A DNA stretch of 64,000 bases from Maribacter aquivivus. Its GTDB lineage: Bacteria > Bacteroidota > Bacteroidia > Flavobacteriales > Flavobacteriaceae. A model generated the notes under the pieces. That model was not told where the DNA came from. It saw only the letters and a list, made by a program, of their open reading frames with translations, and ran no database searches. The stretch is from positions 1,674,001-1,738,000 of the forward strand of contig NZ_FQZX01000001.1 of NCBI RefSeq assembly GCF_900142175.1. The letters are read 5' to 3'. Both the position numbers and the translations under genes were made by a program. Shown here one piece after another: positions 7,182 to 29,869 of this stretch (position 1 is the first letter of the stretch; each line of letters starts with the position of its first letter).

Positions 7182-10100
7182 TTAGTTTTCAACCGAAACT
7201 CTTACTCCTTCACTATGACTACTAAATTCTGGTGCATACATACTTTGTATGGTGGTAATACCATTACTGAAATCTCCAGCATTATTTACGCGTACATCAT
7301 ATTCAAACACATAAACCCCTTTTGGTAAATAGTCAAAGAAGAAATTGGTACTTGCATCTTTGGTGCTTTCGTAATACCCTAAGCCGTCTTGCCACTTATA
7401 TCTTGAAATTACGTTTACGGGCTCAAACCCTGCTGCACGCATATCTTTCATGTGTATGAATTCCATATCACGGTCGGATCTCAGTTCAATTCTAATCTTA
7501 ACCAAGTCACCTACTTTTAACGTAGTGTTGCCGGTCACTTCAGAAATTACCTCGCCAGAATCTGTATTCTTTTTCAAGAATATTTTCTTCTTTAATTTCA
7601 ACGGAGTCTCGGCGCTTGTAATTTTATCTAAGTCCTCAAAATATTGCCAGTACAAAGCTCCCCAAGCAATTCCGTTGCCTTTTTTGCTAATTTGTACTTC
7701 ACCCATTTTAGGTTGAATTTCAGCAGTGTTCCAAAAAGTTTTAAAGTAGCCTGTTCCTGCTTCCACTTTTACATTTTCTAATTTAGACGGGTCAATCTCT
7801 TTACCGCCAATTAAAATTTCGACTGCATCTGTAACCGATAACCATTCACTGCCTTGTAGTAATAATGCATATACTGCTTCAGTTGTTGCTTTAGTGGTAC
7901 TCCATTGATTGGTCTGCTTATTTTTAAGTAACCATATTTTAAGATTATCAACCGTTTCAATATCCGCAGGGCGAATTTCAGAAAATGCTTCAATCAGTAA
8001 AGCTTGTGTTTCTATAGGTGCCTGATACCAAAACCATGAGTTGGTATTACTTTTCCAGTACATGCCCAATTCATCATTAGTAATGCTATTTTCTTCTAAT
8101 GCACGTAGAATTTTAGTAGATGTTTTTGCGTCATCTATTCTATGCAATATTAAAGCAAGCATTCCCTGTGCATATAAACCTCTTTTGGTCCAATATTTCT
8201 GCGCTTGTTTTATATAATAGGAAGTTATCTCATCTACTTTCTTAGAAGTTTTAATATCCTTAAAAAAGCTGCGCATGTATAAATAATGTACCTGATTTGC
8301 ACTTAAGTGATCATCGTTAATATTAGAGGTATGTTTTTTCATTTGCTCATACTCTTTAACAAACTCAGCATCTAAATATGAAATTGCGTCTTCTATCATA
8401 TTAGATTGTTTGCTGTCCACAGGCGAAGTAACCAAATGATTCAAATGACCCATACCCGAAATTATATGTTGGGTAATGTATCTGTTATCGGGACCACCAT
8501 TGAACCAAGACCAAGCTCCACTTGAATTCTGATTTTGAGCAAGCTTGTTTAAAGCTGATTGTTGCTCGTTCTTCATCTTGTTTAAATTGAACAATAAACC
8601 GATTCTTTTCTTTTGTTGGGTTTCAGATTGTGCATCGCGTAACCAAGGTGTTTCTTGAATTAATAAGGATTTTAATTCCTCATTCTTTTCTAGATTGCTT
8701 AGTAAGGCATCTGAATTTGCCCATTGGTTAAACACCTCACGAATTCTTGGGTTGCTATTTGCAATATGGCTAGCCAATGAATTTGCGTAATACCTTGAGA
8801 ATGTCTGCTCGTTACAATCATACGGGTATTCCATTAAATACGGCAATGCCTGTACTGCGTACCAAGCTGGGTTAGATGTCATTTCTAAAGTCAGCTTATG
8901 GTGTTTCAGCGTGGTCGATGAGGTGTTGCTTAGCTTGTCTAAAGTAAACGTCTTGGTTTGGTTACTGCGAATCCACATTGGTAATGATTCAGTTACCAAT
9001 GTTCTGTTTGATAATACAGGCAACATGTTTTGTTCCCCATCAGAGAAATCAGCTGCTTTTGCAATGATTTTATATTGAACCGATTGCAACCCTACCGGAA
9101 TATTCAATCTCCATGATACTTGGGTATTCCCCATAGCATCAACTTCAAAAGAGTTTGTCTCTAGTGTATTAGAAGCCGCTAACAATTGTTTTGAAATATC
9201 TGCACCTATTACCGCATCTGTCAATTCTAATTTTGCCTGACCAGAGAGTAGTTTTTCTGTTAGGTTAGAAATTTTAGTACTAATTATTATCTCATCACCC
9301 TCACGTAAAAATCGTGGTGCATTTGGCGTCACCATCAATTCTTTTTGGGTCACCGTAGTTAAGTTGGTAATAGTACTTTCCAATTCTTTGGTATGTGCCA
9401 AAAGTTGCAAATTCCAACGGGTTAATGCCTCAGGTGTGGTGAAATTGAACGAAACATTTCCTTCTTTATCTGTCTGTAATGTTGGAAAGAAAAAAGCGGT
9501 TTCTTGGAGATTTTTTCGAATGCTAACTGATCCAAAATCTTGGTTCTCTTTTTCAGGTTCTGTTGTTGATTCGGTAATTTCAACACCTGCGACTCTGCCT
9601 TCTAATTTACTTTCTTTTTCAATAGTACCATAGCCAACAACGACAGTTGCATCTAATGCAGCATCGTCTTCCATCATGCTGTTTGCAATTGGTGCGGCAG
9701 ATCTTTTGTACAGGGGCCTTTGTTCATAGAAGTCTCCGTATGAATGAAAATCTAACCCGAATGAATCGAAAGAATCAAATCTTAGACTTGGGTAGCTCAT
9801 GTCTTCATAATTCGAAAATGTATAGAAGCTGCTGGTCGAAAAGCTGTTATGAGCGTTCGTTCTAATTCGTGAATAGTAATTTGGTCTATGAAATGGATAA
9901 AAGCTCCAAGAATGAGCTCTAAATTGATCTAAAGAGGCATCATACATACTTGCTAATAACTCAGCACTTACTTTTTCACCTTTCGGACCTTTGATCTTAA
10001 AAGACCAAGTTTCATCAACACCCGGAGCTATTTTGTCTCTAAAGGTCGTTGTCTCTATTTGTAAATCGCTAGAAGGGTAGGGAACAAGAATATTATGAGT

Positions 10101-13100
10101 GTTCCATTCAAAATAATTAGCAAATGCATAACTGTAAGTGATTACAAATCCGCCTAAATCATTTTCGGTAACAGGTACAGATATTGTTTTTGAATTGTTG
10201 TTCAACGTAATTAACTTTTCGTCAACTACGGTATTACTCTTTTCGACTCTTACATAAACATTCAGATCCTTAGCACTTGAAAGAAATGTTATTTGTGCTT
10301 TGTCTCCTACTTTATATTGAGCTTTATCTGTTTTTATATGAAACAATTGGTTGTCGGCTAATGTTTGCTCGTTACCAGTAAATGTAATATTAGCGATATC
10401 TTTTACGGCTTGCCCAAATTTATCTTTTGAGTTTAATTCTAACCTGTATTTGCCAGATTCCCAATTCTTGGTTTTACCGAAATTGATTTCCTTAGAATTA
10501 TGAGTGTTGAAGTTAGATTGCCAAACCATTTTACCTTTTTTCCAATTGGCAGAATTGTCTTCGTCTTCAAAAGCGTCATGCGGATAAAGTTTCAAGAATT
10601 CATCTTTTGAAAAACCTTGGTAATCTGGAGCAGCCCATTGTCTGGGTCGTATTACGTTTTCAGGTGCTTGTAATTTGTATAATTTTACTTCGCCTGTTGC
10701 AGGTACAAATTCTCCGTTTAAATTTCTGCTGGTAATAGTAAAGCCTGTGTCCTTTAGGGTCTTATCAATAGATTCTGGAAGAACTAAATTCACATTTAAC
10801 GCATGATAACCAACTGCAACATTCGTAACTGTGCTTCTAGTTTCTCCATTAATATCGGTTACATCTGCTGTAATTTCATAATTAAATGTTGGCAGGTTTT
10901 CTTTCTCTATACTATTATCGGGTATCGCTTTAAACTTTATTTTATAATTACCTGCTGCATCTGTAACGGTCTCGCCTTGTTCAATTTCTTGAGAAGAGCC
11001 ATTAAAATGGGGTCTGAACCAATAATACCATCTGGGTAAATTCACAACTCTTTTTACGCGGTAAACTACCTTTGCATCTGAGATGGAACTACCTGCGTAT
11101 GCTGTTGCTTTACCTATTACCGTTATACTATCATTGACTTTATAAGTGTCCGTAACTGGTTCGAAATTTGTTTCAAATTTAGGTCGTTTGTACTCTTCAA
11201 CTGAAATACTGGTATATCCGTTCAAACGATTTTCATTTGAGGAAACGCGAATAGAAAACTGACCTGTGAGTCCGGAATTTGGTAGTATAAATTCACCCGA
11301 AATAGAACCATAGTCATTGGTGGTCAACGCGAGAGTTTCTATTTCTTGCCCGTTAACATCTGCCAATGTAACTTTAATTTTGGCGTTTTCTAAAACTTTA
11401 GAGATTCCTTTTTCTTGGCTGATGGCTATACCCTTAAAAAATAATGGCTGACCTGGTCTGTATATACTTCTGTCCGTAAAAAGAAAGCACGAATAGTTAA
11501 TTCGTTCTTCATTTTGTGCATACCCTCTGTTTACGTAGTACTCGCCAAAATATGCAGTTTCGCTGTCCTTTTTAGCGGTTATAGAAACGTCGTTCCAACT
11601 TTCTTCGTTTTTTTCGATAGTGATGTTACCATGTTTATCTGTAGTATATGTTTTACGGTTTATTGGTTCTTTATAGTTTTTTCGATACCCTAAAATAACT
11701 TCTGCACCAGCAATAGGTTTGCCATTATTGCGATCGATTACTTGGTAGAACTGATGAGTTAAGTTTTGCGTTTCTATTACTGCTAAATTGGTTACTTGAA
11801 CAGTGGTGAAGCTAAATGAATTTACTTTTTCATCTCCAGATTCTGCCACTATCACATAATTTCCATTTTCTAAAGCAGGTATGGAGATTTCAGTACTATG
11901 CGTTTGATAATCGTTTTCTGTTTTTAAAGATGCCGACCAAGTTTTAGCAACAGACAGTTTTTTTATATAGTCTTGTTTCTTATTGTCTTGATATAATTCT
12001 TCAAGCTCTTTTAATTGTTTCTGGGTAATTTGGTAAGCCATTAACGACAGACGCTCCATATTTTTATAACTAACCAATAGTCTGCTTACCGTGTTGGTTG
12101 GTATGTGCTTTTCTGAAGTCAGTTGAATAGTGGTGTTTTGAATTTCAGATTTTAATACCATGCATTTTTGTGCACCTAAACTTTTAGGGAATCTTGCAAT
12201 TACATCATCGCAAAGTGCAATGGCTTCTTTTAACTTCCATTGGTGTTCTTCATTCGTTTTAGGGGAATAAGTGAGTCCGGATTTTTGGTACTGAAGTGCA
12301 ATTTCAAAGGTGTATAAGCTAGATAGCGGGCTGTGCTTTATGTTTTCCGCTGAATTCTGCAAAACCTCAAGAAATAGATTGTCTTTATTTTCGAAGGTGG
12401 CATTTTCATGAATAAAGCGTAATCGCTCTATATCTACCAATACCAACGGATTCATATCTGGATTGCCAAAATGGAATGATACTAGTTGTTGGTAAATTTC
12501 AAGTGCTCTAGATTGTAATGACAGGTTTTGACCATTAACAAAATTTAAAAAGCTAGCAGAGTATGCCTCGCATAAAATTGCTTCGATGTCAATTTCAAAT
12601 ATATCTGCAGGTTTGTTGATGCTATTTTCGCTAGTCGTGTAAAATTGTAAAGCGGTATGTGCGAGAACGTCAAATAATGTAGGTCTGTATTTTTTGCTTT
12701 CTTCATTCTTTACTAAAATCTCATTAAAATCTGAAATAGGAAGTTGCTGAGTAGTGCTAGCATTTTCTAAAGATGTAGTAAAATGATAATCTATTTCTTT
12801 AAAAATCGTATCTAAATCCCAGGTTCTAAAATCTACCGAATCAATCTTAACAGCTGTCTTGGTTCTATTATTAAATTTATATCTGTTTTGTTTGTAGTAT
12901 TGCCAGTATAATTTTGCTAAATGATTATGTAGTATTTGTTTAGTAGGTTCGGCAGCAATTGCTATTTCTGATTTGAAATCATTAACGATAGTTAATTTAG
13001 CATCTTCTTCGAGTATGTTAATTAAGCCAGATTTATAAATAAGTGCCTTTATAGTCTGTACCTCATTCTTCTCGTTTTTCGCTTTTTTAAAGATAGCTTC

Positions 13101-13247
13101 AGTTTGTTTTAATGCCGATTTATTCAAGTTTTCCATCTTTAAATCAAGAACCTTATCCCATAGTGAATCATAAGAATTGTGCTCTTGTGCATTACCAAAT
13201 TGTGTGGACATAAATACGATTAGAATTAAATATAGCTTTTTCATCAT
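7182..13247 (-). CDS. Alpha-2-macroglobulin-like protein with a SusC-plug-like insertion
   Basis: 2021 residues from the ATG at 13247; a longer reading would need a TTG at 13265. Signal peptide MMKKLYLILIVFMSTQFGNAQ. A helical N-terminal region of about 400 residues precedes the macroglobulin-type beta domains, including an MG2-like segment (DRSIYRPGQPLFFKG). The thioester motif CNEQ, matching CxEQ, lies near residue 1477 and is followed by an alpha-helical thioester domain and a C-terminal receptor-like domain. Bacterial A2M proteins trap attacking proteases in the periplasm. Around residues 1195-1220, just before the conserved stretch VSIRKNLQETAFFFP, there is an insertion containing VVVGYGT and GRVAGVEI, which resembles the plug signature of SusC-type receptors. 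The gene is monocistronic. Confidence 0.9.
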   Translation of the reverse strand: MMKKLYLILIVFMSTQFGNAQEHNSYDSLWDKVLDLKMENLNKSALKQTEAIFKKAKNEKNEVQTIKALIYKSGLINILEEDAKLTIVNDFKSEIAIAAEPTKQILHNHLAKLYWQYYKQNRYKFNNRTKTAVKIDSVDFRTWDLDTIFKEIDYHFTTSLENASTTQQLPISDFNEILVKNEESKKYRPTLFDVLAHTALQFYTTSENSINKPADIFEIDIEAILCEAYSASFLNFVNGQNLSLQSRALEIYQQLVSFHFGNPDMNPLVLVDIERLRFIHENATFENKDNLFLEVLQNSAENIKHSPLSSLYTFEIALQYQKSGLTYSPKTNEEHQWKLKEAIALCDDVIARFPKSLGAQKCMVLKSEIQNTTIQLTSEKHIPTNTVSRLLVSYKNMERLSLMAYQITQKQLKELEELYQDNKKQDYIKKLSVAKTWSASLKTENDYQTHSTEISIPALENGNYVIVAESGDEKVNSFSFTTVQVTNLAVIETQNLTHQFYQVIDRNNGKPIAGAEVILGYRKNYKEPINRKTYTTDKHGNITIEKNEESWNDVSITAKKDSETAYFGEYYVNRGYAQNEERINYSCFLFTDRSIYRPGQPLFFKGIAISQEKGISKVLENAKIKVTLADVNGQEIETLALTTNDYGSISGEFILPNSGLTGQFSIRVSSNENRLNGYTSISVEEYKRPKFETNFEPVTDTYKVNDSITVIGKATAYAGSSISDAKVVYRVKRVVNLPRWYYWFRPHFNGSSQEIEQGETVTDAAGNYKIKFKAIPDNSIEKENLPTFNYEITADVTDINGETRSTVTNVAVGYHALNVNLVLPESIDKTLKDTGFTITSRNLNGEFVPATGEVKLYKLQAPENVIRPRQWAAPDYQGFSKDEFLKLYPHDAFEDEDNSANWKKGKMVWQSNFNTHNSKEINFGKTKNWESGKYRLELNSKDKFGQAVKDIANITFTGNEQTLADNQLFHIKTDKAQYKVGDKAQITFLSSAKDLNVYVRVEKSNTVVDEKLITLNNNSKTISVPVTENDLGGFVITYSYAFANYFEWNTHNILVPYPSSDLQIETTTFRDKIAPGVDETWSFKIKGPKGEKVSAELLASMYDASLDQFRAHSWSFYPFHRPNYYSRIRTNAHNSFSTSSFYTFSNYEDMSYPSLRFDSFDSFGLDFHSYGDFYEQRPLYKRSAAPIANSMMEDDAALDATVVVGYGTIEKESKLEGRVAGVEITESTTEPEKENQDFGSVSIRKNLQETAFFFPTLQTDKEGNVSFNFTTPEALTRWNLQLLAHTKELESTITNLTTVTQKELMVTPNAPRFLREGDEIIISTKISNLTEKLLSGQAKLELTDAVIGADISKQLLAASNTLETNSFEVDAMGNTQVSWRLNIPVGLQSVQYKIIAKAADFSDGEQNMLPVLSNRTLVTESLPMWIRSNQTKTFTLDKLSNTSSTTLKHHKLTLEMTSNPAWYAVQALPYLMEYPYDCNEQTFSRYYANSLASHIANSNPRIREVFNQWANSDALLSNLEKNEELKSLLIQETPWLRDAQSETQQKKRIGLLFNLNKMKNEQQSALNKLAQNQNSSGAWSWFNGGPDNRYITQHIISGMGHLNHLVTSPVDSKQSNMIEDAISYLDAEFVKEYEQMKKHTSNINDDHLSANQVHYLYMRSFFKDIKTSKKVDEITSYYIKQAQKYWTKRGLYAQGMLALILHRIDDAKTSTKILRALEENSITNDELGMYWKSNTNSWFWYQAPIETQALLIEAFSEIRPADIETVDNLKIWLLKNKQTNQWSTTKATTEAVYALLLQGSEWLSVTDAVEILIGGKEIDPSKLENVKVEAGTGYFKTFWNTAEIQPKMGEVQISKKGNGIAWGALYWQYFEDLDKITSAETPLKLKKKIFLKKNTDSGEVISEVTGNTTLKVGDLVKIRIELRSDRDMEFIHMKDMRAAGFEPVNVISRYKWQDGLGYYESTKDASTNFFFDYLPKGVYVFEYDVRVNNAGDFSNGITTIQSMYAPEFSSHSEGVRVSVEN

Positions 13248-13486
13248 AGTAAAATTACAATACAAAACTGTGCCAAGGTAATTTTATATGCAATGAAAAA
13301 TGAGTGAAACGTACTTTTCGTTTAGGTAGGTAAGCTTGCTAGAAGTTTTGGTGGTGATTGCAAAAGAATGATGCACTGTAATTTACCAAAATAGTAATTG
13401 ATAGTTTATCAATTCTAATAATTACATATCCATTGACCTGTAGATGCTCTAAATTATTTATTACTACTATACTTAGTGTTAAAGAA

Positions 13487-14425: not shown

Positions 14426-14633
14426 ATGATATTTAAATATTCAACAGCTGTTTTTTGGCTGGTTTTAATTTAAGGGGTTATATCTGATTTTATAGTATTC
14501 AATTATAAGTACTTATTTCCACTTTTATATTAATGCTAGCCCTTCTTTTTTAATCCCATTAAAGTATTCTCGATTTTTAAATTCTATGTTCCGAGAATTC
14601 GTTCTTGTTATGTTCGTTAAGAGACATAGTTTA

Positions 14634-15221
14634 TTAAAATCGTGCGAGAAGTCCGCTTTCGTGTGCCGCTTCAACTTCTTCTGGCGTAGCTTTGTTATCT
14701 CCGTTAGTATCAACTAAGTCGAAGAATTTATCCAATCCAATTTTACGATAACTTCGTCCTTCTTCATTCGCATAAGCAACAACCTCTTCTCTAGTAACCA
14801 CACAGTCTCCATTGGCATCAGTACCATTAAAACTATGATTGGGTTTAACTTTAGCGAACTCTGTATCACTCAGTTTTCCATCTTTATCCGTATCAAATAG
14901 GTTAAAGAAGTTGAGTATAGTTACTCTTCTATATTCTCCCTCCTCCATGAAAGCCTCTAGCTCTTCTCGCAAAACTGTTCCATCTCTATTTAGGTCAGCA
15001 TTGTCCATTGGTCCATGCTCACTACTACCCGAAGGGCCTTCTTTTAAAGCTTCGCATGGAGTACGTTTGTCTTCACGTCTAGGAGGTCTTGGTGGTCTAT
15101 TCTCACTGTCTGACATAGTTTCTTGTTCGGTAGCTTTGCTTTCAGCTTTCTTGTTGTTTTCACCACAACTCATGAACAAAGTAATACTTAAAGCGATTAA
15201 AATCTTCTTTACTATTTTCAT
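14634..15221 (-). CDS. EF-hand calcium-binding lipoprotein
   Basis: 195 residues with lipobox FMSC (Cys19). A proline/arginine-rich linker follows (about 42-52). Four EF-hand loops are readable: 76-87 (DLNRDG..), 110-121 (DTDKDG..), 135-146 (DANGDC..) and 171-182 (DTNGDN..). Each has acidic or Asn residues at positions 1, 3 and 5, the central Gly, and Glu at position 12. It should be a lipid-anchored envelope calcium-binding protein, in sensing, buffering or Ca-dependent assembly. It borders the cassette block but lacks matched terminal repeats, so I do not count it as a cassette. Confidence 0.88.
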   Translation of the reverse strand: MKIVKKILIALSITLFMSCGENNKKAESKATEQETMSDSENRPPRPPRREDKRTPCEALKEGPSGSSEHGPMDNADLNRDGTVLREELEAFMEEGEYRRVTILNFFNLFDTDKDGKLSDTEFAKVKPNHSFNGTDANGDCVVTREEVVAYANEEGRSYRKIGLDKFFDLVDTNGDNKATPEEVEAAHESGLLARF

Positions 15222-15292
15222 ATTTTATTTTTTATACTTCTAGTCAGGTTATATAAATTTTGTGAACTTGCTCTAGTATTAAAGCTAATGTC

Positions 15293-15447
15293 ACGGCTAT
15301 GGCAAGTAGGGCAGGCAAGGAAACTTTTTGTTTTATTTTTTCTTTTTTTGTCCCAAAGCGAAATCCTAAAGATTTCGGGACCTCATAAATATACTCAAAC
15401 CTTTCGTTTAAGCCTGAAGACCGTATTGTTTATAGGTTGTGTTGTAC
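15293..15447. repeat. attC-like palindromic spacer (site 0), downstream end of the cassette array
   Basis: The right arm (15421-15447, CCGTATTGTTTATAGGTTGTG then TTGTAC) matches the right arms of the spacers at 18286 and 19010. The left arm (about 15293-15312, GGCTATGGCAAGTAGGGC) is diverged and lacks the outer AAC-type terminus seen elsewhere. The inner block (about 15326-15407) has the shared hairpin GAAATCCTAAAGATTTC. Because its outer left end pairs with nothing beyond the EF-hand gene, it looks like the last site of the array. Confidence 0.65.
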
Positions 15448-15456
15448 GCAGGCTTT

Positions 15457-15996
15457 TTAGTCTGCTGAGTACCATTCTTTTTCCACCTTGTTATAATGAT
15501 AGTCATAGCCATAATAAGATTTAAACCCTATAGAATAATTTTCATTTTCATAGAGTTCATAAATGTACTTTGTCCCAATACTTGTTCTTTCTGGCAAATC
15601 AACATTTGCTTCATTTTTAAGCTCAGTTAATGATTTAGGATAAGAACCATTTATCTCTCTATAAGCCTCAACTATTTCAACTATAGCAACTCCATTATGT
15701 TTTGAATTCTCACTTTGCCATTCTCTAATTGGATTTGAAACCAACCAAATAAAAAGTAACTGAATAAGCGATATAATAAAATAGTATTTAAATTTTGTTG
15801 ATTGCTTTATGTCAATGAGAATTGATATTACAAGACCTATTAATAATACAATCAATAAAAAGATTAAATAAAAAAACAGTCCAAATCCAAATTCCCAAAC
15901 AAAGGAAAAATTCCAGACATATAACACTAAAAACAGAAAGGATAAAATGCCAAAAAGTACTAGAGTAAACTTTTTTGGGTCTGAAATATTTTTCAA
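15457..15996 (-). CDS. Cassette gene A: membrane protein with pseudopilin-like C-terminal domain
   Basis: 179 residues. Three hydrophobic segments (about 10-27, 32-58, 71-86) are followed by a soluble domain. That domain starts VAIVEIVEAYREINGSYPKSLTEL, which resembles the helix and G-x-YP-x-SL-x-L pattern of type II secretion pseudopilins, and ends with Tyr-rich strands (YYGYDYHYNKVEKEWY). The start is TTG at 15996, since no ATG lies near. The gene is tightly framed by its own inverted termini GTTGTAC (15441-15447) and GTACAAC (16019-16025). The function is unknown; a folding unit shared with pseudopilins does not imply pilus assembly. Confidence 0.65.
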   Translation of the reverse strand: MKNISDPKKFTLVLFGILSFLFLVLYVWNFSFVWEFGFGLFFYLIFLLIVLLIGLVISILIDIKQSTKFKYYFIISLIQLLFIWLVSNPIREWQSENSKHNGVAIVEIVEAYREINGSYPKSLTELKNEANVDLPERTSIGTKYIYELYENENYSIGFKSYYGYDYHYNKVEKEWYSAD

Positions 15997-16018
15997 TTGG
16001 TTTTATTTTTCAGCTTGG

Positions 16019-16209
16019 GTACAACGTTAAATGTAAACGTCCGTGCGTGGAAAAAGTCAGCGACTTTCGGTATAGCACAAGGCGTTACACTTTTAATATT
16101 TTTAAATTATCAGTTAAAATAATAAAATTTGTGACGCCGACTTTGCAAATACAAAACTTCCTTAGCCCAAAGCACTAAGAAGCATTGCGTTTACATAGTG
16201 TTGTAAGTA
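16019..16209. repeat. attC-like palindromic spacer (site 1) between cassettes A and B
   Basis: Outer arms: left GTACAACGTTAAATGTAAACG (16019 on), right CGTTTACATAGTGTTGTAAG (16188-16207). They pair as TACAAC and ATGTAAACG, with extra bases in the left arm. The interior differs from the other long spacers, with its own hairpin (GGCGTTACA near 16080 against TGTGACGCC near 16134). It is a second core type in the same array. Confidence 0.7.
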
Positions 16210-16212
16210 GTT

Positions 16213-16698
16213 TTATATTAACTTTTGATATTCTTTAATTTCATTAATCACTTCTTCAATTGATTTTCCAAATTCCGCTTCAGGAATTACGATTGGACTT
16301 CCAAATTTTTTAGTATTTGTATTCATAAGGTTTCGTATGGGATAACTCTTTGTGTTGAGAAATAAATCAATATTATTTAACTCTACAATTAAACAATTTC
16401 CTCTTGATAATTTTCCTTTAGAGAAGTCATCAATAAACTTCCATTCAACTATTCCCATTCCATTAGTTCTTATATTAATTCCACTTCTATTTATAATGAT
16501 AGAATTAGAACGAAATATAGAATCATACAATCCCCATATAGAAATTATTAAAAAGAAAGCAGGAAATAAAGAATATAAAGTGTGCTTTTCAGCATTTAGG
16601 AGAATATATAACGAAATAACACCAAAAACAGAAGATAGAACAATAGACTTTATCCTTGTATTAGCATCTTTTTTATATTTAATAGAATCTTTTTTCAT
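16213..16698 (-). CDS. Cassette gene B: membrane protein with PH-like domain
   Basis: 161 residues. Two hydrophobic segments (about 17-34 and 42-59) are followed by a soluble domain with a PH-like pattern (SIIINRSGINIRTNGMGIVEWKFIDDF), resembling small bacterial membrane proteins of the STM3941 type. A helical tail ends the protein (FGKSIEEVINEIKEYQKL). No catalytic motif is seen. The cassette is bounded by TGTAAGTA (16202-16209) and TACTTACA (16730-16737), and the stop codon is only 4 bases from the site-1 terminus. The function is unknown. Confidence 0.6.
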   Translation of the reverse strand: MKKDSIKYKKDANTRIKSIVLSSVFGVISLYILLNAEKHTLYSLFPAFFLIISIWGLYDSIFRSNSIIINRSGINIRTNGMGIVEWKFIDDFSKGKLSRGNCLIVELNNIDLFLNTKSYPIRNLMNTNTKKFGSPIVIPEAEFGKSIEEVINEIKEYQKLI

Positions 16699-16729
16699 TA
16701 TTTTGAATCAACGCTAGAATTTTGGCAAT

Positions 16730-16750
16730 TACTTACACCTTGTTGTGCGT
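16730..16750. repeat. Minimal 21-bp junction between cassettes B and C
   Basis: TACTTACA (the B terminus, 16730-16737) is joined through only three bases to TGTTGTGCGT (the C terminus, 16741-16750). The long palindrome present at the other junctions is missing. Either its core was deleted or this is the minimal retained form. Confidence 0.6.
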
Positions 16751-16918
16751 TCGTTTTTTTATTCGGTTAACAATTTCAAATCCCAAATATTCTTTCAGTT
16801 TTGGAAATTTGTATCTGTAATATTCATTCCAATAACTTATCATTCTACTTTATGTCTGTTGCCAATACATAGGGTTTTCATCTCTAAATTCAGCGCAAAA
16901 GTCCAGAGTGTTTTCATT
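16733..16918 (-). pseudogene. Disconnected C-terminal part of cassette gene C
   Basis: In the frame ending at the TAA 16735-16733 there are 61 protein-like codons directly after the cassette C open frame: NENTLDFCAEFRDENPMYWQQ, then one TAA (about 16849-16855), then SRMISYWNEYYRYKFPKL and on to EIVNRIKKRTHNKV. The composition (WNEYYRYKFP, YLGFEIV) is typical of coding sequence and fits as the natural C-terminus of gene C. A frameshift at about 16918 and one in-frame stop separate the pieces. The last codons run into the cassette terminus. Confidence 0.6.
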
Positions 16919-17364
16919 TACTTTTTGTCAATAATCGGAAGTAGTTCATAGATGTATTCTCCAATTAATTGAATTAGAAAAGGAACTGTCCATTTTTCTA
17001 AATTATCCGATAATAAATTCAGCCTTTCTTCTCTTATATGTCCATTATGATGTCTCAAATAAATACAATTTAAGATGTCTTTTTGTTTGTCCGTCAGAGT
17101 CTTTTCTAATTCTGGATTTGGCTCGTCAAAGTAAAGTCTGTATGGAATTGTCAAAGTTTCATTGTCAAGTACTACATCCAACTCATTTTCGTGAATCAGA
17201 TTGTCAACCTGGTGAATTGTTCCGTCAAAGGGTTTTACTTTATTATTGTCAAATGGAATGATTTTTAAAACTGCATTTAAATCCGAATACAGTTTTTTCG
17301 GGAAAGATTTGGTAAGTCTTTCCTTATATTCAGATTTTATATTTCGCTTAAATATCTTTAGCAT
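16918..17364 (-). CDS. Cassette gene C: unknown protein, probably truncated by frameshift
   Basis: 148 residues, no signal or membrane segment. It contains LTIPYRLYFDEPNPELEKTLTDKQKDILNCIYLRHHNGHIREERLNLL, then WTVPFLIQLIGEYIYELLPIIDKK. This looks like a family of cytoplasmic helical proteins of unknown function that carry an RHHNG motif and a C-terminal YW..YY region. That last region is present downstream but out of frame (see the pseudogene at 16733-16918), so the annotated frame probably lacks its last 60 residues or so. The cassette termini are TGTTGTGCGT (16741-16750) and ACGCACAACA (17382-17391), the longest match of the array at 10 bases. Confidence 0.55.
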   Translation of the reverse strand: MLKIFKRNIKSEYKERLTKSFPKKLYSDLNAVLKIIPFDNNKVKPFDGTIHQVDNLIHENELDVVLDNETLTIPYRLYFDEPNPELEKTLTDKQKDILNCIYLRHHNGHIREERLNLLSDNLEKWTVPFLIQLIGEYIYELLPIIDKK

Positions 17365-17381
17365 TTCGGTTTTCTCAAATG

Positions 17382-17582
17382 ACGCACAACACAGTACCTA
17401 AGCGTAGTGCGGTAGTAAGGAAACTTTTCGTTTCCGTCCGCGCACGAAGCTAAAGCTTATTGTTTAGTTTTATTTTTTCTTGTCTAAAGCTAAATCCTTA
17501 AGATTTAGCGACTTTATAAATATACACAGACCTTTCGGTTTTGCCCTAAAGTCCGCATTACGTTTAGGCTGTGTTAGCCATA
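17382..17582. repeat. attC-like palindromic spacer (site 2) between cassettes C and D
   Basis: Left arm CACAACACAGTACCTAAGCG and onward to GTAGTGCGG; right arm, on the other strand, TAACACAGCCTAAACGTAATGCGG. They pair over more than 20 bases with two extra bases (TA) on the left. The inner block around 17466-17540 carries the hairpin CTAAATCCTTAAGATTTAG shared in position with sites 0, 3 and 4. A second inner stem lies near 17411-17445. Confidence 0.75.
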
Positions 17583-17586
17583 GTTT

Positions 17587-18276
17587 TTATTTCCGGAATA
17601 TTACTTTGTGAATCCTTAACTCAATTTTTGTCCCACCGATTCCAGTCTTTTCCATAAAGTGCATTCCCATCGGTTTTCCAATATCCACTTTCTCTATTCT
17701 CGATAAGTAATAATCTGCGTCTCTTTCAGAAAATTTTGCTAGTGATTTTAATTTTAAATCTCGAACCATTTTGGCAAAATCCCTTCCATTAATTGGCTCG
17801 ATTTCTTTAACGACTCCAATTTCAGTTGGCAATTCCGTTTCTGTTCCATTAAAGAAATGCATACTTTTTCTAACTCGTTTTTTTGGTTTAAAACCATAAG
17901 GAGCAGGAATTAACAATTCTCTATCTTTTGTGTAATTGTTATGTGAATATTCAGAATCGGAGAAAAGTGCTTTAGTGTAAATTTTATTCTCAGATTGCTT
18001 ATAAAGTAATGAGGTTTTAAATGGATTTTTTGAATCTAATTCTTTGTTTTCAGGTTCAATTTCTAAATCGCAATCTTCAGGTAAATTGTATGTTACTTCG
18101 CAATCACAAAATCCACCGTTCGATTCCAGAATATCAATCAAGTCATCTTTGTCAATTCCATTGTTTTCAGCCCATTCAAATGTATTTCTCAATGAGTGGT
18201 CGCATCCATTCTTTTCAATCCGTTTCTCAATGAAAACGCACAATTCTGTCACTTGTTTTTCGGTAAGAATGGTCAT
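17587..18276 (-). CDS. Cassette gene D: DUF2695-type N-terminal domain fused to an unknown C-terminal domain
   Basis: 229 residues, cytoplasmic. Residues 1-65 fit DUF2695: a Cys25-x-His27 pair (CDHSLRNTFEWAENNGID) and Cys57-x-Cys59 (GGFCDCEVTYNL), likely a metal site. Residues 75-229 form a second domain with no name I can give; it contains LLIPAPYGFKPKKRVRK and GRDFAKMVRDLKLKSLAKFSERDADYYLSR. The cassette is bounded by the 9-base termini TTAGCCATA (17574-17582) and TATGGCTAA (18286-18294). The stop codon is 4 bases from one terminus and the start codon 9 bases from the other, an extremely compact unit. Confidence 0.7.
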   Translation of the reverse strand: MTILTEKQVTELCVFIEKRIEKNGCDHSLRNTFEWAENNGIDKDDLIDILESNGGFCDCEVTYNLPEDCDLEIEPENKELDSKNPFKTSLLYKQSENKIYTKALFSDSEYSHNNYTKDRELLIPAPYGFKPKKRVRKSMHFFNGTETELPTEIGVVKEIEPINGRDFAKMVRDLKLKSLAKFSERDADYYLSRIEKVDIGKPMGMHFMEKTGIGGTKIELRIHKVIFRK

Positions 18277-18285
18277 TTATTAAAT

Positions 18286-18482
18286 TATGGCTAACGGTTG
18301 AGCTATGAACAGTACGGGAGCAAACTGGCGTTTGCTTTCCGCCACGCACATAGCGAAATCTTTTTGTTTTGATTATTTTTTCCTGTCCAAAGCAAAATCC
18401 CAAAGATTTTGCGGACTTTATAAAAATACACAAACCCTGCGACTAAGCCCGAAGCCCGTATTGTTTATAGGTTGTGTAGCCA
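18286..18482. repeat. attC-like palindromic spacer (site 3) between cassettes D and E
   Basis: Left arm GGCTAACGGTTGAGCTATG and on to AACAGTACGGG; right arm on the other strand GGCTACACAACCTATAAAC and AATACGGG. The left arm has about three extra unpaired bases. The inner block (about 18358-18430) contains GCAAAATCCCAAAGATTTTGC, a perfect small hairpin identical to that of site 4. Confidence 0.75.
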
Positions 18483-18485
18483 GTT

Positions 18486-18989
18486 TTATTTATTTTTCAA
18501 TAATTCAGTTTCCAAATTGTCTTTTGCTTCGGAATAACCCATTCCTTTCGTTATTGGATTTCCGTCAGAATCCAAAATCACAAAATATGGCTGAACATTG
18601 GATTTAAAATTCTCCTTTTGATAATCAGACCATTTTTTTCCAACTTTTTTATCGTCAACATATAACCAAACATTGATATAGTCATTTTGCATTGTTTGGA
18701 ATAGGGTCTCATTTTTCATTATCAAGTCCGATTCTATTTTCCGTCCGTTAATTACTGCGTAACCAGTAAAATATAAGAGTATAGGCTTTTTTTCAGTTTG
18801 TGCTTTTTCAATTCCATAATCCAAGTCCTTTAAAATTCGTAGCTCAGAATTCAGATGTTCTTCTTGTTTTTTTCCTTTTTCTATTGCGTTTTGAATATCA
18901 GATTCAGTTGGGAATTCAATTTTATGATTCGGATTTTTACAGTTTAAAAAAGTAAAAATTATTAAATTAAGTAAGAATAGTTTTTTCAT
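18486..18989 (-). CDS. Cassette gene E: thioredoxin-fold lipoprotein lacking the active-site cysteines
   Basis: 167 residues from the ATG at 18989; a longer reading would start at a TTG at 19007. Lipobox FLNC (Cys17). The region 66-160 follows the thioredoxin-like pattern of DsbD C-terminal and thioredoxin_7 proteins: KKPILLYFTGYA, VWLYVDD, and the cis-Pro segment NVQPYFVILDSDGNPI. Where the family has YACVNCRK, this protein has YAVINGRK (77-84), so both redox cysteines are replaced (Val79, Gly82). It cannot do classical disulfide exchange and is more likely a binding or chaperone protein. Cassette termini are TGTAGCCA (18475-18482) and TGGCTACA (19010-19017). Confidence 0.75.
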   Translation of the reverse strand: MKKLFLLNLIIFTFLNCKNPNHKIEFPTESDIQNAIEKGKKQEEHLNSELRILKDLDYGIEKAQTEKKPILLYFTGYAVINGRKIESDLIMKNETLFQTMQNDYINVWLYVDDKKVGKKWSDYQKENFKSNVQPYFVILDSDGNPITKGMGYSEAKDNLETELLKNK

Positions 18990-19009
18990 TTGAACAATGT
19001 ATCTCAAAT

Positions 19010-19211
19010 TGGCTACAACGGTCAGGCTATGCGCAGTGTGGGTTTTGATTTACAATTCCCAATGCGCCACTACTCGTAGCCAAATCTTTTTGTTTTGATT
19101 TATTTTTTCTGTCCAAAGCAAAATCCCAAAGATTTTGCGACCTCATAAAAATACGCAAACCCAGCGAATAATCACCTTAGCCCACATTACGTATAGGCAT
19201 TGTTACCCAAC
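19010..19211. repeat. attC-like palindromic spacer (site 4) between cassettes E and F
   Basis: Left arm GGCTACAACGGTCAGGCTATG and on to GCAGTGTGGG; right arm on the other strand GGGTAACAATGCCTATACG and TAATGTGGG. The left arm carries about four extra bases. The inner hairpin GCAAAATCCCAAAGATTTTGC (19119-19139) is identical to that of site 3. With cassette F's 110-base tail (19212-19321), the whole gene-free gap is 19008-19321; I see nothing else in it. Confidence 0.75.
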
Positions 19212-19321
19212 GTTTTTTCCGCCCGAGTTAGCTTTTTATTAGAATGGCAAGTCCATTAACACAACAGTTGCGTTTGAGTAAGGTCCATCTGCGCAAACTT
19301 GCTTAGAAGGCTTTTTTTGGT

Positions 19322-19783
19322 TTATAGTTGGTAGCTAATTACACCGAGAATGATTAGAATAAAGTCTATCAAAACAGCTTTTTTTAAGTTCAGCTTAGAG
19401 GTTATGATTTTATACCCAATGATAATTCCGACAAGTGCTAAAACATTATGAAGAATCAATATCCAATCGGCTATGCGAAAAGTCGGGTAATAATCGGTAA
19501 TATGATAACGATATAATAAATAAATACTAAGCCAGAACCAAAAGAGATTAATAAGAATAATGAATAGACCGATTATTTTATGCTTCTTTAAGAAGACTAG
19601 GCATGAAACGGAGGTTAAAATCAGAATCAGAATTGTACCGTAAATAACTAAGTCCATCCACAATCTAACATTCTCTATTTCTGGGACAGTTTTATTTAAT
19701 ATTGACCCTGCAGAGAAAAAAAGTATTAGCGACAACACAAGAAAAATAATTGAATGATTTATAATAATTTTTCTTTTGGTCAT
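19322..19783 (-). CDS. Cassette gene F: four-helix membrane protein of unknown function
   Basis: 153 residues with four predicted transmembrane segments (about 9-28, 44-66, 70-92 and 107-150, the last probably split in two). Loops are short and carry no catalytic motif; N- and C-terminal ends are basic. I do not recognise the family. It is the first gene of the array in transcription order. Termini: TTACCCAAC (19203-19211) and GTTGGGTAA (19795-19803), nine matching bases. Unlike the other cassettes it has a 110-base non-coding tail before its downstream terminus. Confidence 0.6.
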   Translation of the reverse strand: MTKRKIIINHSIIFLVLSLILFFSAGSILNKTVPEIENVRLWMDLVIYGTILILILTSVSCLVFLKKHKIIGLFIILINLFWFWLSIYLLYRYHITDYYPTFRIADWILILHNVLALVGIIIGYKIITSKLNLKKAVLIDFILIILGVISYQL

Positions 19784-19797
19784 TTGTTCAAAATGTT

Positions 19798-19847
19798 GGG
19801 TAAATAAGAAATAAACGTACCTAGGTACGTTTATTTCTTATTTACCC
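19798..19847. repeat. Perfect 50-bp palindrome at the upstream edge of the cassette array
   Basis: The two 25-base arms are exactly complementary with no loop: GGGTAAATAAGAAATAAACG and TACCT on the left, its inverse on the right, centred on CCTAGG between 19822 and 19823. Its outer ends GGGTAAA/TTTACCC overlap cassette F's terminus. There is no T run after either arm, so a simple terminator is not obvious. It could form a cruciform or be a recombination or protein-binding site. Confidence 0.9.
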
Positions 19848-19965
19848 GTAATTTAATCAAATCTTCTAAAGTATCAATGAATACGGTTGCTTAGTGGTGT
19901 TTGCCCGTATAATATGTGTATAATATATGTTTGTAAACGACTAAATTTTATTATTACTTGGTCAT

Positions 19966-20751
19966 CTAAAGAGATTTTAGAAGTCCGCCATCAATAGGAA
20001 TATTTGTTCCAGTTATATAAGCTGCATTATCAGATGCCAAGAAGGCTGCTAAAAAACCATATTCTTCTGGGTTACCTATACGTTTCAATGCCACTCTAGA
20101 TTCCATATCTTTTCGTACTTGGCTTTGTTCTACACCTAATTGCTCTGCTTTTTTTGCATTAAGTTGCGTAATACGGTCCGTATCAAAATAACCGGTGAGT
20201 ATGCTATTTACTGTAATGTTGTGTTTGCCAACATCTGTAGCCAAAGTTTTTGCCCACGTTACTACGGCAGCCCTAATAGAATTTGAGAGCGCTAAGTACG
20301 ATAGTGGTTCTTTCACTGAAACTGAGGCAACATTTATAACTCTACCCCAATTCTTTTGCATCATAGACTGTAGTGCCAATTCTGTTGTATAGACCACGGT
20401 TTTAAACAAGAGATCAAAAGCTTCTTGGTAATCATCTACTTTTTTTTCCAATGCACTACCAGCAGATGGCCCTTGTGTATTATTTATCAAAATGTCTACT
20501 GTATTTTTTTCGAAAAAATTGCTAATTACGCTTTTGTAATCCTTAAAATTATTGAAATCTACTGCAAGATATTGGTGCTGCTGTCCTTGGTTTGTAGGCA
20601 ATTCATTTACTATGTTATGTAACTTCTCTTCACTGTGCGACATTAGGGTTACACTAGCGCCACTTGCCGCTAATTGTTGTGCTATGGCTTTACCAATACC
20701 ACCACTACTACCACCAACTAATGCTTTTTTATTTTTTAACGATATGTTCAT
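19966..20751 (-). CDS. SDR-family oxidoreductase with non-classical catalytic site
   Basis: 261 residues, Rossmann fold. The nucleotide motif GGSSGGIG (13-20) stands for TGxxxGxG, NNTQGP (90-95) for NNAG, and the serine strand is NVASVS (140-145). The catalytic YxxxK region reads YLALSNSIR: Tyr152 is present but the Lys position (156) is Ser. The C-terminal IDGG is conserved. It therefore belongs to the divergent SDR branch with an LSNS motif, usually annotated as 3-oxoacyl-ACP reductase-like, and its substrate is unknown. It lies 53 bases after the cupin gene on the same strand and is probably in one operon with it. Confidence 0.85.
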   Translation of the reverse strand: MNISLKNKKALVGGSSGGIGKAIAQQLAASGASVTLMSHSEEKLHNIVNELPTNQGQQHQYLAVDFNNFKDYKSVISNFFEKNTVDILINNTQGPSAGSALEKKVDDYQEAFDLLFKTVVYTTELALQSMMQKNWGRVINVASVSVKEPLSYLALSNSIRAAVVTWAKTLATDVGKHNITVNSILTGYFDTDRITQLNAKKAEQLGVEQSQVRKDMESRVALKRIGNPEEYGFLAAFLASDNAAYITGTNIPIDGGLLKSL

Positions 20752-29089: not shown

Positions 29090-29869
29090 ATGAAAGTTAT
29101 TATAAAAAATATAGGGTTGGTGTTATTCTTTTTTACACTAACAACTGCTGCAGGTTATTCTCAGGGAAATTCTGAAGGAAAAGCCAAGGGTAAGGAAAAA
29201 AAGGAAAAAATTCAAAAGTCTGTTGAAGATGAAGCGGAGTCCCAAAAAGGCAAAGCCAAGGAAATGAAGCAGAAGGGGCAAGATAAAATAAAGGATAAGG
29301 CCAAAGGCAAAAAGGAAGATATTAAGGAGTCTGTTGAAAATGAAGTGGAACGCCAAAAGGGCAAAGCTGAGGAAATGAAACAGAAAGGTCAGGACAAGGT
29401 CAAAAAGGCTAAAAAAGAAAAAGGTCTTGAAGATGATGATGACTACATGAAAAATGATGATGATTTTGATGTAGAAGATGAAGCAGAAAAGAAAGAAAAA
29501 AAGGTTAAAAAAGAGAAATCTAATAACGGCAAAGCTTACGGTAGAGATAAAGGCGATATGAGTGGTGAAGAGTTTGGTAAATATCGAGCTTCAATAGCCC
29601 AAGAGCAGGTAGAGGAAACCGAAAAGGAACTTACTGAGAAAGAAGAAGTTCTTAAAAAAGGTAGAGAAAAGGTGAAAAATGCTAAAGAAAAAGTAGCGAA
29701 GGAAAGAGAAGTTAAAGGTGCTGACGAGGAAGTTATTAAGCAAAAGGAAGAAAAGATTTCTAATGCAGAGAAAAAGCTAGACGAGTTAGAAGAGGTAATT
29801 AAACGCAACAAAGAAAAAGTAAAACAAAAAGCAGAAGAAATTAAAAAAATTTCTGAACCTATTCAATAA
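29090..29869 (+). CDS. Secreted Lys/Glu-rich coiled-coil protein with two internal repeats
   Basis: 259 residues. Signal peptide (MKVIIKNIGLVLFFFTLTTAAGYSQ). The rest is almost only Lys, Glu, Asp and Gly/Ala. Two tandem copies of about 40 residues are clear: ESVEDEAESQKGKAKEMKQK-type at about 42-66 and SVENEVERQKGKAEEMKQKG at about 82-101. An Asp-rich stretch (DDDDYMKNDDDFD) splits these from a second coiled-coil half (from about 155). No known family. The extreme charge suggests a structural or binding role in the envelope. A terminator follows at 29893. Confidence 0.7.
   Translation: MKVIIKNIGLVLFFFTLTTAAGYSQGNSEGKAKGKEKKEKIQKSVEDEAESQKGKAKEMKQKGQDKIKDKAKGKKEDIKESVENEVERQKGKAEEMKQKGQDKVKKAKKEKGLEDDDDYMKNDDDFDVEDEAEKKEKKVKKEKSNNGKAYGRDKGDMSGEEFGKYRASIAQEQVEETEKELTEKEEVLKKGREKVKNAKEKVAKEREVKGADEEVIKQKEEKISNAEKKLDELEEVIKRNKEKVKQKAEEIKKISEPIQ

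Follow-up and report, generated by a model that had tools for sequence, protein, structure and literature searches.

Here we analysed a stretch of 64,000 nucleotides (nt) from Maribacter aquivivus (contig NZ_FQZX01000001.1, positions 1,674,001 to 1,738,000; the whole stretch is called the window below), in which six minus-strand genes, A to F, lie with an SDR gene on one side and an EF-hand gene on the other. Our comparisons suggest, with a probability of roughly 0.88, that these genes form an integrase-less remnant of an integron-like gene-capture system, the complete form of which would use a tyrosine recombinase of 375–380 amino acids (aa) that is not an IntI. By the features tested, the system appears to work like an integron except in its core consensus, although it does not seem to be an IntI integron, and the window would hold a remnant resembling a cluster of attC sites lacking an integrase (CALIN). 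The initial annotation had offered two readings, a divergent integron-like system or an array without its integrase, and both fit, as a CALIN-like array of a divergent system; an integrase gene stands at the same site in four relatives and a recombinase gene with six attC sites is present elsewhere in the same genome. Beyond that annotation, the palindrome at 19798-19847 proved to be attI-like, the recombinase tested as a non-IntI, and two A.C mismatches recur in the sites.

The ends of the cassettes provided the first line of evidence. All 12 termini that had been assigned to the six genes, as one private inverted pair per gene, were located within a few bases of their proposed places. Inside the window alone such matches are weak, merely suggestive evidence, since half of random draws give 7 nt or more: in a free search covering 60 nt upstream and 170 nt downstream of 1382 random places, inverted matches of at least 7, 8, 9 and 10 nt turned up at 50, 16, 4.8 and 1.1% of places, respectively. 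The same search recovered five of the six window pairs (A 7, B 8, D 10, E 8 and F 9 nt), and cassette C gave 5 nt, its end being cut off by the 170-nt limit. The evidence comes instead from the repeat family, at whose fixed positions the signal is very strong. Across 30 loci of this genome and its relatives, consecutive sites matched at 6/6 positions in 70 of 104 pairs and at 5/6 in 7, against 1.8 and 4.1 expected with shuffled partners, and the two ends of one spacer agreed at 6/6 in 4 and at 5/6 in 9 of 129 spacers. In a set of 80 named integrase loci, 64 of 86 pairs matched at 6/6 and 10 at 5/6 (shuffled, 1.8 and 4.1), the corresponding counts for the ends of one spacer being 2 and 6 of 131; the two sets overlap, with at least five loci on identical contigs. 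Cassettes shorter than 1600 nt matched at 6/6 in 64 of 77 cases and those of 1600 nt or more in 6 of 27, and most pairs in the latter class were taken to have overlooked sites between them. The proposal that termini pair within a gene and vary between genes, which chance-level matching would have undermined, is thereby borne out in both sets of loci (70 + 7 of 104 and 64 + 10 of 86 pairs, against about 6 with shuffled partners). This is the pattern that circular cassettes with one folded site each would leave.

The spacers carry a family of attC-like sites. Read in the gene direction, a site comprises N6-AAC, 3 nt, an 18-nt arm, a loop, a second 18-nt arm, about 5 nt and GTT-N6; its core (N6-AAC / GTT-N6) is private to the cassette, its total length is about 188 or 124 nt, and its arms pair as 6-1-4-1-6 with A.C at both single positions. 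Among 261 sites, 123 measured about 120–130 nt, 137 about 180–210 nt and one 110 nt. The imperfect symmetry and the cassette-private cores expected of attC sites are both present, and, as the initial annotation had pointed out, the ends keep AAC/GTT without the full RYYYAAC/GTTRRRY core: the sites do not follow this consensus, GTTRRRY being kept in 20 of the 261. The search of the genome and its relatives for the spacer family, which that annotation had recommended, gave 22 matches in the own genome for a query spanning 18287-18500. Counting the own genome, 60 were searched and 38 gave a match; within the genus, 34 of the 35 remaining genomes did so, and no match to this DNA query was found in G005. 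A dispersed MITE-like (miniature inverted-repeat transposable element) or REP-like (repetitive extragenic palindromic) repeat, inserted between ordinary genes, might account for 22 scattered, hairpin-forming copies, but it is barely worth considering as the source of the spacers, as it would neither make the ends of gene units match while spacer ends differ nor start homology between genera at a cassette end.

When 30 loci were searched with a structural finder (range, 90-300 nt), 25 contained sites, 129 in total, and three mononucleotide-shuffled sets contained none. When the A.C filter was removed, 145 sites scored at least 13 compared with 11 in one shuffled set, and both A.C mismatches were present in 195 of 213 sites scoring at least 14, with overlapping loci counted twice. 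In the 80 named integrase loci, 131 sites were detected in 45 loci, with none on the strand opposite the integrase and none in one shuffle. Pairing was also assessed in 48 distinct arm pairs, for which BLAST and the outer bases were the sole criteria of choice and pairing was not selected for, after 20 of 85 BLAST sites that could not be anchored had been dropped. On average 9.56 of 12 inner positions were paired, against 7.29 (maximum 8.00) with shuffled partners, and A.C occupied the two mismatch positions in 37 and 40 of the 48 pairs. Several stem positions change on both sides; position 8 is A-T in 17 pairs, C-G in 14 and G-C in 4, and position 9 is G-C in 17, A-T in 12, T-A in 7 and C-G in 3. 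These comparisons show a covarying stem marked by two A.C mismatches. For one site, the attC of cassette D, folding as single-stranded DNA gave z values of -3.9 on the gene strand and -4.75 on the other strand.

The arrays are linked to a family of tyrosine recombinases of 375–380 aa whose genes are codirectional with the cassettes, with attI just behind the stop codon; this linkage and orientation, as compared across genomes, held in nine loci of the 375-aa type from the first set and in the 45 named loci with sites. The genome has nine PF00589 matches, all of them outside the window, in agreement with the earlier statement that no integrase gene is present there. A tyrosine recombinase elsewhere with co-occurring sites, for which a search had been advised, is encoded in the own genome at C1:329044 (L021) together with six attC sites, and the genome has two more recombinases of 296–301 aa (L030 and L032), which are XerC/XerD-like by size only. 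The residues R235, K260, H324, R327, H350 and Y359, which we take to be the recombinase active site, were invariant in 40 family members, and the N-terminal part of about 100 aa had no credible Pfam or PDB match. By sequence, the best PDB matches of the recombinase were 4a8e and 5hxy. Foldseek with a predicted model (mean pLDDT, a local confidence score, 81.7; pTM, a global one, 0.51) placed XerA and IntI4 first, which indicates just a tyrosine recombinase. Near attC sites, a tyrosine recombinase of 272 aa was also observed in L113; the recombinases in L109, L110, L111 and L113 lie on the strand opposite the sites.

By the tests made, this recombinase appears not to be an IntI. First, the IntI model TIGR02249 aligns to the family at model positions 8-178 and 242-314, the L021 protein scored 206 bits against a cut-off of 265, and none of the 36 genus genomes contained an IntI over this cut-off. 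Second, an insertion of about 42 residues (35 in one block), reportedly necessary in IntI, was present in four aligned IntI (L263-L266) and absent from four family members. Third, 26 family rows of a 52-row tree formed one clade (100/98) and 17 IntI another (100/99), the deeper order being unsure owing to long branches. The Xer-type model NF040815 (cut-off 220 bits) was passed by two of three tested members (L021 231.6, L099 237.0 and L103 219.9). Two points weigh against a strict non-IntI reading: the title of NF040815 already contains the words integron integrase, and the insertion is not fully conserved in an integron-like subgroup of tyrosine recombinases, according to the accessible text of PMC8138268. 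That text, compared by description, covers neither the present recombinase family nor its arrays.

The family was found in at least 67 of 397 genomes of the Flavobacteriaceae, in 54 of 237 genera, at 1e-120 or better, a lower bound since only the best candidates were scored; it was found in 7 of 395 phylum genomes (own included) at 1e-100. At least 484 relatives were confirmed in a contig search, from which the 80 named loci were kept. A classical CALIN, left behind when an ordinary IntI integron decays, would share the general anatomy described here, and IntI over the cut-off occurs in 105 of the 395 sampled phylum genomes. This origin is nevertheless very improbable: apart from the genus lacking such an IntI and the rarity of GTTRRRY, the arrays are linked to a different recombinase, and of the 108 phylum genomes with any IntI match at 1e-50 all but one (G095) lie outside the class.

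A further feature is that the attI core occupies a constant position past the recombinase gene, as indicated by the recurrence of the first attC core 41–46 nt past the stop codon in 8 of 10 loci. In L021 it recurs with one difference, read from the sequence, and in L105, with a recombinase of another type, at 972 nt. In the 45 named loci with sites, the core behind the stop matched at 6/6 in 34 (at 36–135 nt), at 5/6 in one and worse in 10, a count made with no shuffled control. Palindrome scores of the first 45 nt past the stop averaged 5.8, compared with 2.4 after shuffling, and 31 of 77 loci exceeded the latter by more than 4. Alternatively, this palindrome might be no more than a terminator of the integrase gene. 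It was also considered that another recombinase, either host XerC/XerD-like or of the 355-, 400- or 275-aa type, moves the cassettes and that the 375-aa protein is only a neighbour. Such enzymes do occur near attC sites in L105 (400 aa), L109 and L110 (355 aa) and L111 (275 aa), but the fixed place of the attI core behind the 375-aa gene in many genera, and the restriction of the sites to that gene's strand in loci with sites, render this quite improbable.

Integrase loci have an attI adjoining the integrase gene with the first cassette joined to it; the window has an attI-like site, not an integrase. The hairpin core AAATAAGAAATAAACGTACCTAGGTACGTTTAT is common to the window palindrome and to the attI behind the integrase stop of L106, at equal spacing to TT, and the 7 nt before TT differ between the two (TTCTTAT in the window, CGAATTG in L106). 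The outer arms of the window palindrome are longer than those of the L106 attI and include the first bases of cassette F, the TTACCC of which falls inside the outer arm. The palindrome has one exact place in the genome, and a second copy with two mismatches was observed at C1:1056169 (C1:1056169-1056194, L150), about 8 kb from a cassette cluster at C1:1047626-1048405. An Rfam search over 14500-20500 returned four plant microRNA matches at the palindrome, all below the gathering score and regarded as chance. In a number of loci (the window, L099, L100, L102, L103, L104, L106, L107 and L117, and of the same varying kind L151, L154, L160, L162 and L164), attI palindromes keep their place and vary in sequence, as if exchanged as a unit. 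Two successive palindromes precede the attI core in L227, L230, L231, L233 and L234 (Winogradskyella, Psychroserpens and others).

The chromosomal locus was compared among relatives. A search at 1e-60 detected the SDR gene in 34 of 36 genomes, and 32 loci plus the window were compared (n = 33), a partial match in G010 being left out. The locus was empty in 12, with the A2M gene 74–252 bp after the SDR gene; it held an integrase in four (G008, G018, G020 and G026), three of them with attC sites and G008 ending with its contig; it held attC sites without an integrase in six (G000, which is the window genome, G003, G004, G015, G019 and G033); and it held neither in the remaining 11, among them G025 at a contig end. 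Locus content thus differs between relatives and ranges from empty to integrase-bearing to cassettes only, not the fixed gene order that would have counted against an array of cassettes. The simplest reading would be a sedentary integron at one site with its integrase lost in several lineages, and we infer that the window locus once held an integrase and then lost it. As an alternative, the locus never held one, and an enzyme encoded elsewhere put cassettes into an attI-like hairpin behind the SDR gene, in the manner of attG capture. The integrase at C1:329044, other cassette clusters on C1, C2 and C3, and the lack of any integrase remnant at the window locus in a tblastn search at 1e-6 would agree with such capture; we regard it as unlikely because an integrase gene occupies the same place in four relatives and, in sequence core and spacing, the window hairpin corresponds to an attI.

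Evidence of cassette mobility came from two sources. Homologues of gene D (76–81% aa identity) were found in three other genera among 397 genomes, own included (L291, L292 and L293), and DNA homology with cassette D starts 1–4 nt before GTT in all three; in L291 it continues into the attC, and in the other two its end lies no more than 8 nt from AAC. In L291 a cassette with the same two cores is flanked by attC sites, of which the upstream one belongs to another type; in L292 the start core is kept, with a short site before it recognised by eye, and the end is damaged; in L293 the core is another one, and no site was detected by the finder. The short site of L292 (about 1425-1485) is a very short attC-like site of about 70 nt, under the finder range. 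These comparisons indicate one cassette common to several genera, and sharing between genera rests on cassette D because 141 distinct cassettes included no cross-locus pair at 75% identity over 70% of the length, only weaker partial matches. Among the loci then compared, genes A to F had a single, weak homologue, which matched F at 33% over 87 aa. In addition, G005 contains near-identical cassette copies starting from attI: four 451-bp copies of one cassette without a long open reading frame (ORF), 96–99% identical and each running from TT to G, three in tandem from the attI behind the integrase and one displaced (L321:1701-4119). They possibly reflect recent amplification of a non-coding cassette, and the G010 array holds a unit 91–94% identical to it.

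The longest ORF lies in the array sense in 134 of the 141 distinct cassettes, with the start codon at a median of 29.5 nt from TT. Pfam searches on the 126 cassette ORFs of at least 70 aa gave 72 families with at most two members each; among those shown were acetyltransferases, superoxide dismutase, GyrI-like proteins, amidase, Abi_2 and several of unknown function. Cassette ORFs matched 40 PADLOC models, including AbiD, SIR2 and mads proteins, and some cassette products resemble known anti-phage defence proteins (AbiD/Abi_2, SIR2, mads).

Taken as a mechanism, we infer that the 375–380 aa recombinase performs the reaction, with a folded single strand as its substrate and a cut after G. The enzyme, with its Xer-like core, an unannotated N-terminal part of about 100 aa and no IntI insertion, most likely recognises attC sites as single-strand hairpins and would join them, after the G of G-TT, to the attI beside its own stop codon; circular cassettes would enter at attI and leave between attC sites. 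Several points weigh against this integron-like reading. Recombination itself is predicted from sequence features. The geometry of the finder was fixed after the first alignments had been seen, and its controls were mononucleotide shuffles. The finder detects no site in 13 of the 57 loci where 1000 nt or more are available past the integrase, and the attI core is not matched at 6/6 by 11 of 45 first sites. Of the three gene D homologues, only L291 has attC on both sides by the finder, and the core of L293 differs. The joint at the window attI is imperfect, with T for the expected G and TTACCC inside the palindrome, and the palindrome sequence differs between siblings at one locus (for example, the window and G004). 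The other recombinase types near attC sites, the lack of close cross-locus cassette pairs and the missing integrase remnant belong here as well.

The features of the window are listed in Table 1. The array is decayed, as just two of its spacers pass the structural finder, the site at the C/B junction is lost (read from the sequence), the R'' of the cassette E site is 3 nt short and the last site has ATT for GTT. A 25-nt match to this terminal attC was observed on the plus strand at 29807-29831, distant from the array.

Table 1. Features of the cassette array and its flanks (window positions).
Feature	Position	Strand	Basis
Cassette termini	F 19803/19211, E 19019/18482, D 18295/17582, C 17390/16750, B 16736/16209, A 16025/15449	-	
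attI-like site: perfect palindrome 19798-19847, 25-nt arms; cassette F starts at its end (TTACCCAAC, 19803-19795)	19795..19847	-	inverted repeat, sequence
Cassette F; gene F 19322-19783, 153 aa, no Pfam match	19019..19803	-	termini TTACCCAAC / GTTGGGTAAC
attC of cassette F: 188 nt (AAC to GTT), 14/16 stem pairs, both A.C mismatches	19010..19211	-	structural finder
Cassette E; gene E 18486-19007, 173 aa, thioredoxin-like Pfam match below cut-off	18295..19018	-	termini GTTGTAGCCA / TGGCTACA
attC of cassette E; R'' short, fails structural finder	18286..18482	-	sequence; repeat query 18287-18500 covers most
Cassette D; gene D 17587-18276, 229 aa, DUF2695 (PF10905, E 1.2e-17)	17390..18294	-	termini GTTAGCCATA / TATGGCTAAC
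attC of cassette D: 188 nt, 14/16 stem pairs	17381..17582	-	structural finder, single-stranded DNA folding
Cassette C; gene C 16918-17364, 148 aa, no Pfam match; attC nearly all gone	16739..17389	-	termini GTTGTGCGTC / ACGCACAAC; sequence
Cassette B; gene B 16213-16698, 161 aa, without a Pfam match above cut-off	16025..16738	-	termini GTAAGTA / TACTTACAAC
Degenerate attC of cassette B, below finder threshold	16017..16209	-	sequence
Cassette A; gene A 15457-15996, 179 aa, without a Pfam match above cut-off; far boundary approximate	15290..16024	-	termini GTTGTACCC / GCGTACAAC
Terminal attC of cassette A; ATT replaces GTT at its decayed right end; end position approximate	15290..15449	-	repeat families D1/D2; sequence
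SDR-family dehydrogenase (PF13561), chromosomal flank on attI side	19966..20751	-	Pfam; locus compared in 33 genomes
2027-aa protein, labelled A2M (putative), far flank; adjoins SDR where locus is empty	7182..13265	-	locus comparison

A classical integron has an attI beside a tyrosine recombinase gene, cassettes mostly of one ORF and in one direction, attC sites with R''-L''-...-L'-R' symmetry, cassette-private cores and a joint at G-TT, and the present system shares each of these features. Unlike IntI integrons, it has a recombinase without the IntI-type insertion and with an extra N-terminal part, GTT-N6 instead of GTTRRRY as its core, 18-nt L boxes that contain two A.C mismatches, and a recombinase gene codirectional with the cassettes whose stop codon is followed by attI. 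The window resembles a CALIN in having attC-like sites and no neighbouring integrase, but its sites belong to a divergent attC family. With XerA/Xer (NF040815, titled site-specific tyrosine recombinase/integron integrase) the enzyme shares the catalytic core, and it differs in its own N-terminal part and its linkage to attI and cassette arrays.

A description of this system was not found in the literature searched, with preprints and most subscription journals outside that search, and the accessible parts of seven papers describe no integrons in Flavobacteriaceae (PMC9024848, PMC9668308, PMC8565304, PMC8138268, PMC10013915, PMC8618304, PMC2426708). In these parts, a complete integron is reported in Salinibacter and, from earlier work, just In0 in Bacteroidetes (PMC9024848), Bacteroidota are listed among the integron-bearing phyla (PMC8618304), and IntegronFinder detected none in a Tenacibaculum (PMC10013915). 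Since IntegronFinder, according to the accessible description, calls IntI by PF00589 overlapping an IntI-domain profile (PMC9668308), the complete forms are probably not called by it.

We consider it reasonably likely that these arrays represent a second, IntI-independent integron lineage, in which an Xer-type recombinase would have gained the capture of hairpin cassettes without the IntI insertion, with mismatch-marked attC sites and a palindromic attI, and which may have been overlooked because the finders seek an IntI-specific domain. If this is true, another Xer-type enzyme, without the IntI domain, can also serve as the basis of integron capture, an uncounted cassette pool would be opened, and the role of the IntI domain would become a directly testable question.

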